Assembly (NCBI GenBank): GCA_017552615.1
Contig: JAFZPI010000016.1
Location: forward strand, 1 to 48,651
Source: Clostridia bacterium
Lineage (GTDB): Bacteria; Bacillota; Clostridia; Christensenellales; Aristaeellaceae
DNA length: 48,651 nt
Reading direction: 5' to 3'
Positions 28,436 through 36,616 of the stretch are shown in pieces. The notes beneath the pieces were generated by a model. It was not told where the DNA came from and did not search any database. It saw only the letters and a program-made list of their open reading frames with translations. Position numbers and translations under genes: made by a program. Within the stretch, counting starts at the first letter, position 1; every line of letters begins with the position of its first letter.

Positions 28436-28861
28436 TCAGAGGGGTTCGTACTGGCTGTAGAAGGCGAGGGCGATGCCGGCCAGGAAGATGAGCGCCAGGC
28501 CTACCCAGAGGATGTGGCTGAAGGAGGTGGGTTCCTGCTGGCTTTTCAGCACCTTGTAATCATAGAAGGTCTTGGGCAGGTCCTCCCGCTTCTTCCTGGT
28601 GAACATGAGGCTGAAAACCTTCATCAGGCTGAAGCGGATCATGTCGAAGACGCCGTTCTGGGAGACAAAGGCCATCAGGCCGATGCCGATGAACAGGGCG
28701 CCCGGGACGAAGAGCGCGTCACAGACCAGCCGCCAGCGCTCCCCGGGGTCGGTCGCGGCGAAGCCGCCCTGTGCCCCGAAGAGCAGCAGGCTCAGCGCGA
28801 GGCCGATCCCGGCGGAGATGACGTATCGCTTCCATTTGGGTTTCTCGGGGGTATCCTTCAC
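28436..28861 (-). CDS. DUF3899-type three-helix membrane protein
   Basis: A 141-residue integral membrane protein with TM helices at about 13-30, 50-68 and 117-135. The stretch between TM2 and TM3 (SQNGVFDMIRFSLMKVFSLM, then TFYDYK) matches the DUF3899 family as I know it. It starts at a GTG that overlaps the oppF stop (GTGA), so it is the last member of the opp operon and likely made with it. Its function is unknown; a partner of the enlarged transporter is possible by context. Confidence 0.75.
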   Translation of the reverse strand: MKDTPEKPKWKRYVISAGIGLALSLLLFGAQGGFAATDPGERWRLVCDALFVPGALFIGIGLMAFVSQNGVFDMIRFSLMKVFSLMFTRKKREDLPKTFYDYKVLKSQQEPTSFSHILWVGLALIFLAGIALAFYSQYEPL

Positions 28862-35587: not shown

Positions 35588-36616
35588 TCACTTCCTCGAA
35601 CCCATGCGGATGCGCGGGTCGATGAAGCCGTAGCTGATGTCGGTCAGGATGCCGGACGCCAAACCGATCACGGTGTAGAAGAAGGTTTCGGCCATGAAGA
35701 AGTTATAGTCTTTCACACTGATGGCATCGACAAAGACGTTGCCGAGGCCGGGAATGCCAAAGATCCTTTCGATGATGAGGGAGCCGCCGATGATGCCGAT
35801 GAACTCGCCGATGATCATCGGCAGGATGACCACCATTGAGTTGCGCATGGCATGGCGGGAGATGGCCTGGGCTTTGGTCAGGCCCTTGGTGCGGGCAAGG
35901 AGCATGTAGTCGCCCGTCAGCACCTCCGAGAGCTCGGCGCGGGTGTAACGGGTCAGGCGGGCTGTCACGCCGAAGCCGAGGGAGATCACGGCCGGGATCA
36001 TGGAGACAAACATCTGCCAGCTGAATAGCGGTGTCTCGTCCAGGGATTTGATCGTCAGGTCAAACCAGCGGAGTTTGACGCACAGGAAAAGCTGGACAAG
36101 GAAGGCGTAGACGTAACTCGGCACGGAGGTAAAGATCATGACCGTCGTGGAGATCACGTTGTCCTGCCACTTGTTCTTTTTCAGGGCGGCGTAAATGCCG
36201 AAGGCCAGGCCGATCGGGATGGCGATCAGAATGGAATAGAGATTGACCAGGATGGTATAGGGCAATTTCTGCATCATGACCGGCCAGACAGCGCGGTCTG
36301 TGTAGAGTTGTTCGCCCATGCCCCAGTTCCATTCGGTGATGACGTTTTTCCAGAAGTTGAAATACTGCACCATGATGGGCTTGTAATAGCCCCGCTGCGC
36401 GTATTTCGCCTTCTGAAGCTCCACGTCCTTGTTGATGCTCTTGACCAGCGGAAGCGGCAGGAGCTTGATGAGGATGAAGCAGATTGTCATGATGACAAAA
36501 AGCGTGAGGAACATGAGCAAAATACGCTTGACAACATACTTGCTCCTGGATCCGCCGAAGAAAGCGCACAGGGCCAGAACGACAACAAGGGCGCTAATGA
36601 CGATGATTGCGGTCAT
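35588..36616 (-). CDS. oppB: OppB-type permease
   Basis: A 342-residue permease of normal size with six or seven TM helices. The EAA-type cytoplasmic loop (DYMLLARTKGLTKAQAISRH) and the closing FGIPGLGNVF segment are characteristic of the OppB/DppB family. It lacks the large additions seen in the other subunits, apart from a short extra N-terminal TM segment (MTAIIVISALVVVLALCAFF) before the usual first helix. The ATG at 36616 has GGAGAGAGACGG upstream. Between it and oppA lie three strong hairpins. Confidence 0.88.
   Translation of the reverse strand: MTAIIVISALVVVLALCAFFGGSRSKYVVKRILLMFLTLFVIMTICFILIKLLPLPLVKSINKDVELQKAKYAQRGYYKPIMVQYFNFWKNVITEWNWGMGEQLYTDRAVWPVMMQKLPYTILVNLYSILIAIPIGLAFGIYAALKKNKWQDNVISTTVMIFTSVPSYVYAFLVQLFLCVKLRWFDLTIKSLDETPLFSWQMFVSMIPAVISLGFGVTARLTRYTRAELSEVLTGDYMLLARTKGLTKAQAISRHAMRNSMVVILPMIIGEFIGIIGGSLIIERIFGIPGLGNVFVDAISVKDYNFFMAETFFYTVIGLASGILTDISYGFIDPRIRMGSRK

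Follow-up and report, generated by a model that had tools for sequence, protein, structure and literature searches.

The 48,651 nucleotides of contig JAFZPI010000016.1 analysed here (the window), from a Clostridia bacterium (Aristaeellaceae), contain an operon for an ATP-binding cassette (ABC) importer, OppABCDF, which by family membership is of the peptide/opine/nickel (Opp/Dpp) type; oligopeptides are its predicted substrate. The largest addition to the system is found on an ATPase subunit: about 500 N-terminal residues of OppF comprise a transmembrane (TM) helix, a domain of about 410 residues predicted to lie outside the cell (the ectodomain) and a second TM helix, all ahead of the ATPase. 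To our knowledge, the established view is that the ATPase subunits of importers are wholly inside the cell, and that the permeases are their sole source of information about the binding protein. An ATPase that crosses the membrane with TM helices of its own and exposes a domain outside would be a natural experiment on this inside-only rule, and it is the surprising part of an otherwise known transporter family.

Our best reading, to which we give about an even chance, is that the window represents a subfamily of Opp-type importers in which a large loop of the permease OppC docks the binding protein OppA, and in which the outer domain of a membrane-crossing OppF contacts OppA or OppC. The subfamily offers comparisons with and without the OppF module inside one bacterial family, and the additional domains of OppD and OppF are new structural targets in abundant uncultured gut bacteria.

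Additions to OppF, OppD and OppC

All five Opp subunits pass the Pfam cut-offs for their families (an SBP_bac_5 binding protein, two BPD_transp_1 permeases with OppC_N, and two ATPases with an oligo_HPY C-terminus); the BPD_transp_1_N domain of OppB, at 23.4 bits, falls just under its cut-off of 23.8. Among NCBIfam models, the permeases match Opp3B and Opp3C best and the ATPases match the Mollicutes OppD and OppF; each of these matches is below the curated cut-off. Walker A, Q-loop, signature and Walker B are intact in both OppD and OppF.

Motif spacings were compared with those of ordinary-size opp genes, the references being two OppDs and two OppFs from loci L046 and L107. The Q-loop and signature of OppD are separated by 426 residues in the window and by 56 in the references, an excess of about 370; Walker A and Q-loop of OppF are separated by 157 residues as against 43, an excess of about 114. 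In OppC, about 246 residues (81-326) extend from TM1 to the conserved FGTN..G.D stretch, where the whole NCBIfam Opp3C model measures 328. The original prediction, made from the sequence of the window, had put the OppD and OppF inserts at about 360 and 100 residues, had described OppC as enlarged outside the cell after TM1 and had found the core motifs intact; on each point the measurements agree. It was also right to set aside fragmentation and mis-assembly, because equally long frames without stops recur in many other genomes. It spoke of additions in four different subunits while its own list held three (OppA, at about 823 amino acids, is also long), and it undercounted the additions, having missed the N-terminal module of OppF.

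Walker A of OppF begins after 549 residues in the window, compared with 53-55 in ordinary OppFs. By the positive-inside rule we infer that the domain between the two TM helices is outside the cell, because the residues before TM1 (1-16) hold four K/R and no D/E, and five K/R follow TM2. An AlphaFold2 model of OppF residues 1-510, built from 16 sequences, consists entirely of helices (the first spanning residues 2-48, the last 454-495), with a mean predicted local distance difference test score (pLDDT) of 81.8, a predicted template modelling score of 0.66 and many blocks above 90. The possibility that a short OppF is made from an internal start was considered and rejected: five internal start codons are present (residues 467-512), and by eye none has a Shine-Dalgarno sequence.

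The OppD insert is likewise predicted to adopt an all-helical fold (mean pLDDT 95.2, in a model that includes about 20 residues of flank). Fold comparisons of the predicted models returned generic helical bundles. Searches of the OppD insert, the OppF ectodomain and the OppC insert against Pfam and PDB sequences, and of the OppD insert against NCBIfam, gave scattered sub-threshold matches alone. The domains of OppD and OppF are thus confidently predicted folds that matched no named family above threshold in these searches. Profile comparisons of the OppF ectodomain with the OppD and OppC inserts gave probabilities under 1%. Homology between the OppD insert and that of Mollicutes OppD was entertained when 15 of 73 members, searched with about 20 residues of core on either flank, weakly matched the Mollicutes model (best E 8.5e-4). 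The relation was gone once the flanks were trimmed: with 50 of the 75 available OppD inserts, the window's included, that model was not among the 25 of 57 families listed, each matched by at most two members, and it could have matched at most one of the 50.

The C-terminus of OppD was used to scan 84,980 species genomes. This gave at least 598 stretches, of which 581 were relatives; the best 80 loci were kept. Counts from these 80 nearest relatives describe the subfamily rather than Opp systems in general. Among them, complete OppDs have at least 600 amino acids in 75 of 76 cases (the exception, L057, has 445) and complete OppCs at least 500 in 70 of 71. By record label the relatives are uncultured Clostridia, Christensenellaceae, Oscillospiraceae, Lachnospiraceae, Bacilli, a few Spirochaetales and other metagenome-assembled genomes, with binning unverified. 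The OppC and OppD inserts characterise a subfamily, oppABCDF-DUF3899, of uncultured gut bacteria.

The OppF module is less widespread. OppF was scored in 77 named loci of the nearest 80: 15 carry the module, and 62, with OppFs of 347-583 amino acids, combine the OppD and OppC inserts with a module-less OppF. In several loci with a full-size OppD insert, Walker A and Q-loop of OppF are only 70-90 residues apart, so that the OppF insert has shrunk; the additions do not always occur together. In two loci whose OppF lacks the module (L050, 10257-11990; L087, 10257-12005) this distance is 216 and 289 residues. The OppD insert is about 100 residues shorter in the window's two nearest operons (L024, 7091-9001; L054, 8411-10288).

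Within the window's family the module is present in 33 genomes of 200 (the window's own genome included); it is present also in 8 of 60 relatives and, in a 398-genome sample of the phylum, in the own genome only. The OppD insert was matched in 91 of the 200 family genomes, 63 of them at E 1e-45 or better and the rest by short conserved-flank matches; 31 of the 33 module-bearing genomes fall among these 63. A single-sequence search found the OppD insert in 3 of 196 genomes of a class sample, the own genome included; in the phylum sample, where at most four candidates per genome were scored, it went beyond a short flank match in the own genome only. The concern that Opp proteins across Bacillota might commonly have these lengths is borne out only in part: long forms are shared by a subfamily, but were rare in broad samples.

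Of the 117 rows in a tree of core pieces, 31 have the module; 30 of these fall into a single clade, the exception being L223, so that the tree needs two changes of state. Further trees place L245 with L223; those of the OppF core (139 rows) and of OppF plus OppD (135 rows) also need two. An approximately unbiased test does not reject a single clade of the module (p 0.289). The tree of the C-terminal half of OppD alone needs five changes, in part because rows with a cut OppF were scored as module-less.

Possible contacts outside the cell and rival explanations

Co-variation was measured as partial correlation (partial r) of the residual distances once ATPase-core distance had been removed, in two sets of operons, 52 lacking the OppF module and 16 carrying it; the latter set excludes L221 and L223, set aside beforehand, and rows without a complete OppA or OppC. 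In the larger set the OppC insert follows OppA closely (partial r 0.84), and it does so again in the smaller (0.82). This lends indirect support to docking of OppA by OppC outside the cell. In the 16 operons the OppF ectodomain follows OppA at 0.50, the OppC insert at 0.48 and its own OppF insert at 0.21, and it probably contacts OppA or OppC.

We picture the importer as follows. The OppC loop, outside the cell, would help to receive peptide-loaded OppA, much as has been proposed for pneumococcal AmiC. OppF would be fastened to the membrane through its two TM helices, with its outer domain displayed beside the translocator, where it would most likely contact OppA, the OppC loop or both; it might serve as an extra docking site, or as a signal to the ATPase that loaded OppA is present. 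The OppD insert, as helical bundles on the helical side of the ATPase domain, would probably act in assembly or regulation in the cytoplasm. A bolder version, which we think rather unlikely, is that OppF reads the outside directly: loaded OppA would touch the ectodomain and the signal would pass through the TM pair of OppF, bypassing the coupling helices of the permeases. If true, this would be a second, independent transmembrane coupling route in a type I importer.

Several observations weigh against this picture of outer contacts. In the 52 operons OppA is almost as closely tracked by the OppC core (0.80) as by the insert, and insert and core follow each other (0.76); the link between OppC core and OppA could be explained by exchange of a gene block from oppA to oppC. 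The outer vestibule of the original prediction accordingly has indirect support in the insert, qualified by the core. In the 16 operons the ectodomain also follows the cytoplasmic OppD insert (0.40), and nearly all pairs of additions other than OppC-OppA correlate at 0.21-0.50: the OppF insert with the OppC insert at 0.45 and with OppA at 0.39, the OppD insert with OppA at 0.33 and with the OppC insert at 0.31. Because most pairs correlate somewhat, the signal between ectodomain and OppA is non-specific; the OppC-OppA link stands out in both sets, and lineage noise may account for the other correlations of the smaller set. Two types of OppA are found with the ectodomain, the second in L223 and L245, and window-like OppAs occur without the module in L109 and L112; the module therefore does not go with a single type of OppA. 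Nor is loss of the OppA lipid anchor tied to the module (see below). Finally, the window's own additions, compared with L024 and L054, have higher ratios of nonsynonymous to synonymous substitution (dN/dS), 0.27-0.75, at synonymous distances (dS) of 0.8-2.1.

The OppAs of L109 and L112 (labelled Spirochaetales and Bacillota) score about 740 bits, much nearer the window's type than most loci, which suggests transfer or a binning error.

A different role for the OppF module is possible, though on balance unlikely: as a sensor of some cue other than OppA (cell-wall state, free peptide or pH) that switches the ATPase, in the manner of sensor kinases and chemoreceptors. The layout of TM helix, helical domain and TM helix is the same, and TorS and a chemoreceptor are among the generic helical structure matches. 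Rapid divergence of the ectodomain (between the window and L024 it is 46% identical, the core 92%) and its only moderate co-variation with OppA would also fit a sensor.

It is distinctly improbable that the additions are tolerated expansions of little function, their sizes drifting under relaxed constraint. Their rate of evolution is several times that of the core, L046 and L107 have opp genes of ordinary size and the same OppD type without them, and the OppD insert of L024 and L054 has lost about 100 residues. However, the OppD insert, measured from the Q-loop to near the signature, has 390-442 residues in 72 of 73 scored loci, and dN/dS stays below 0.4 in closer pairs of operons. In five such pairs (L029/L214, L033/L215, L216/L220, L037/L212 and L026/L208; L045/L049 is largely saturated) it is 0.18-0.39 for the OppF module, 0.12-0.21 for the OppF insert and 0.08-0.21 for the OppD insert; for the OppC insert it is 0.035-0.145 in four of the five, and for the cores 0.008-0.084. 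Purifying selection thus acts on the additions in those close pairs where it could be measured, several times more loosely than on the core. With mean pLDDT of 95 for the OppD insert and 82 for the OppF module as well, the inserts are neither unstructured nor unconserved, because their place and the length of the OppD insert are conserved, selection in close pairs is purifying and two of the folds are confidently predicted.

The original prediction had the inserts co-evolving and touching each other, with those of OppD and OppF forming a cytoplasmic collar around the ATPases. Both inserts are at sites of the ATPase that could face outward, and in the 16 operons they correlate at 0.34. The larger set finds no shared residual divergence between them (partial r -0.02, permutation p 0.60), nor between the OppD and OppC inserts (-0.10), and the OppF insert follows OppA at only 0.13; the OppF insert varies widely in size while the OppD insert stays full-size. 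To a collar we can give little probability.

OppA of the window has a signal peptide of the signal-peptidase-I type without a lipobox cysteine. Lipoboxes were called by sequence pattern and by eye, with L196 and L221 excluded from the OppA counts as misread. A clear lipobox is present in none of 21 distinct OppA signal peptides of module operons (three ambiguous), and in 39 of 42 from module-less operons in loci that are not known to belong to the window's family. In the first loci compared, the module and loss of the anchor had looked perfectly linked. The link failed with module-less operons from within the family, where none of 24 distinct signal peptides has a clear lipobox (two ambiguous). 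Other binding proteins behave likewise: there is no clear lipobox in the seven read from the own genome (one ambiguous), nor in the 18 readable of 21 SBP_bac_8 loci of the family (two ambiguous). In other families of the order, by contrast, seven of eight binding proteins have one by pattern and the eighth by eye. The own genome holds lspA and lgt, and the window itself a likely lipoprotein (39435-39854, LAGC). Unlipidated binding proteins are a trait of the window's family, because neither the module-less family operons nor the other binding proteins have a clear lipobox. That the ectodomain specifically compensates for the lost OppA anchor, as the 0/21 and 39/42 counts had suggested, is highly improbable given the module-less family operons and the other unlipidated proteins, and the hypothesis is weakened to a possible, more general part in retaining OppA as a soluble protein.

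Soluble binding proteins of the family (loci L246-L253, L255-L283 and L173-L224) might be kept at the Gram-positive-type cell by an extra outer layer; our literature search found no envelope data for the family.

Operon layout and neighbouring genes

The Opp frames are all on the minus strand in the order oppA, oppB, oppC, oppD, oppF, DUF3899, closely packed, and oppD and oppF overlap by four bases (Table 1). An AGGAGG sequence lies upstream of the oppA start. The open frame of oppB spans 35588-36763 (a maximum of 391 amino acids as listed); in the window, OppB carries additional hydrophobic residues at its N-terminus (36541-36616), ahead of the conserved start and absent from its relatives. 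Of 126 loci long enough to include it, at least 111 have a DUF3899 gene beside oppF (by BLAST, in loci not freed of duplicates), and its product is likely a sixth subunit or partner; we found nothing in the literature on DUF3899 together with opp. In L046 (1-2262) and L107 (166-2212) an oppD/oppF pair of ordinary size, of the same OppD type, immediately precedes the long operon, in the same orientation.

Table 1. Features of the opp operon in the window (amino acids, aa).
Feature	Position	Strand	Remarks
oppA	36775..39246	-	about 823 aa; SBP_bac_5 solute-binding protein; ATG at 39246
OppA signal peptide	39181..39246	-	MKKILALALALCMIAGLVSAAA; end placed by eye, putative cleavage site
oppB	35588..36616	-	permease; about 342 aa from ATG at 36616; near ordinary size
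oppC	33889..35565	-	permease; 558 aa from the listed GTG start
OppC extracellular insert after TM1	34588..35325	-	aa 81-326
oppD	31650..33887	-	ATPase; 745 aa
OppD insert, Q-loop to signature (trimmed)	32415..33524	-	aa 122-491; predicted all-helical
GGAGG ribosome-binding site before oppF ATG	31663..31667	-	
oppF	28858..31653	-	931 aa; N-terminal TM-ectodomain-TM module fused to ATPase
OppF TM1	31546..31608	-	aa 16-36
OppF ectodomain	30316..31545	-	aa 37-446; acidic (98 D/E, 38 K/R, no Cys); predicted all-helical
Acidic low-confidence linker within OppF ectodomain	30520..30648	-	aa 336-378; pLDDT under 50
OppF TM2	30238..30315	-	aa 447-472
OppF nucleotide-binding domain and C-terminal region	28861..30126	-	
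OppF insert, Walker A to Q-loop	29548..29877	-	aa 593-702
DUF3899 membrane protein gene	28436..28861	-	sixth gene of the operon

No RNA element was found in the operon; the sole Rfam match in the window is a tRNA at 47702-47775. Beside the likely lipoprotein gene, 39906-42398 (+) encodes an 830-residue protein with repeated SGATVTS-like motifs, which we take to resemble FMN-binding domains. At 25691-27034 (+) a protein of 447 residues has a long stretch rich in Pro, Gln, Gly and Tyr ahead of its C-terminus, which is presumably SepF-like.

Comparison with known systems

The window shares its core subunits and ABC motifs with OppABCDF and DppABCDF of Escherichia coli and with OppABCD of Mycobacterium tuberculosis, to whose solved structures (8z21, 8z1v, 8j5q) the window's OppD matches in sequence at E 6e-87 and below. 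The subunits of these systems lack the additions found here. Our survey of the literature, which was incomplete and so gives a weak negative, recognised no ATPase subunit with an ectodomain in any Opp system.

As described in passages of PMC12136057, DppD and DppF of E. coli each bind a [4Fe-4S] cluster through four C-terminal cysteines, and these ligands hold DppBCDF together. The four cluster cysteines of the stabilised E. coli DppDF and of M. tuberculosis OppD are not present in the window's subfamily: the C-terminal region of OppD has no cysteine in 128 of 134 sequences and one in six, and that of OppF has one in 122, two in 11 and none in three of 136. The idea that the inserts replace the clusters was rejected, as the ordinary-size OppDs beside the long operons of L046 and L107 also lack these cysteines.

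The Mollicutes OppD and OppF, the best NCBIfam matches of the ATPases (NF043079 and NF043078, 561 and 649 positions), are also longer than ordinary; the window's proteins score far below the cut-offs of these models (461.5 bits against 740 for OppD, 392.3 against 800 for OppF).

Ami (AmiACDEF) of Streptococcus pneumoniae is, like the window's system, a Gram-positive oligopeptide importer in which a permease has large extracellular domains, and in the passages of PMC11192437 available to us those of AmiC are proposed to clamp the binding protein. The large domains of Ami are on the OppB-type permease (AmiC has 498 residues, AmiD 308), whereas the window's large loop is in OppC and its OppB is near ordinary size. 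The same passages describe no ectodomain on an Ami ATPase; the window's OppF has a predicted one. A further difference from Gram-positive importers with a lipid-anchored binding protein is the absence of a lipobox from OppA.

GlnPQ and OpuA, in the descriptions consulted, resemble the window's system as type I importers in which an extra outside domain is carried on one of the transporter's own polypeptides. In GlnPQ and OpuA that domain is a binding domain attached to the transmembrane domain, whereas in the window it would be an all-helical domain, not a binding protein, carried by an ATPase subunit.
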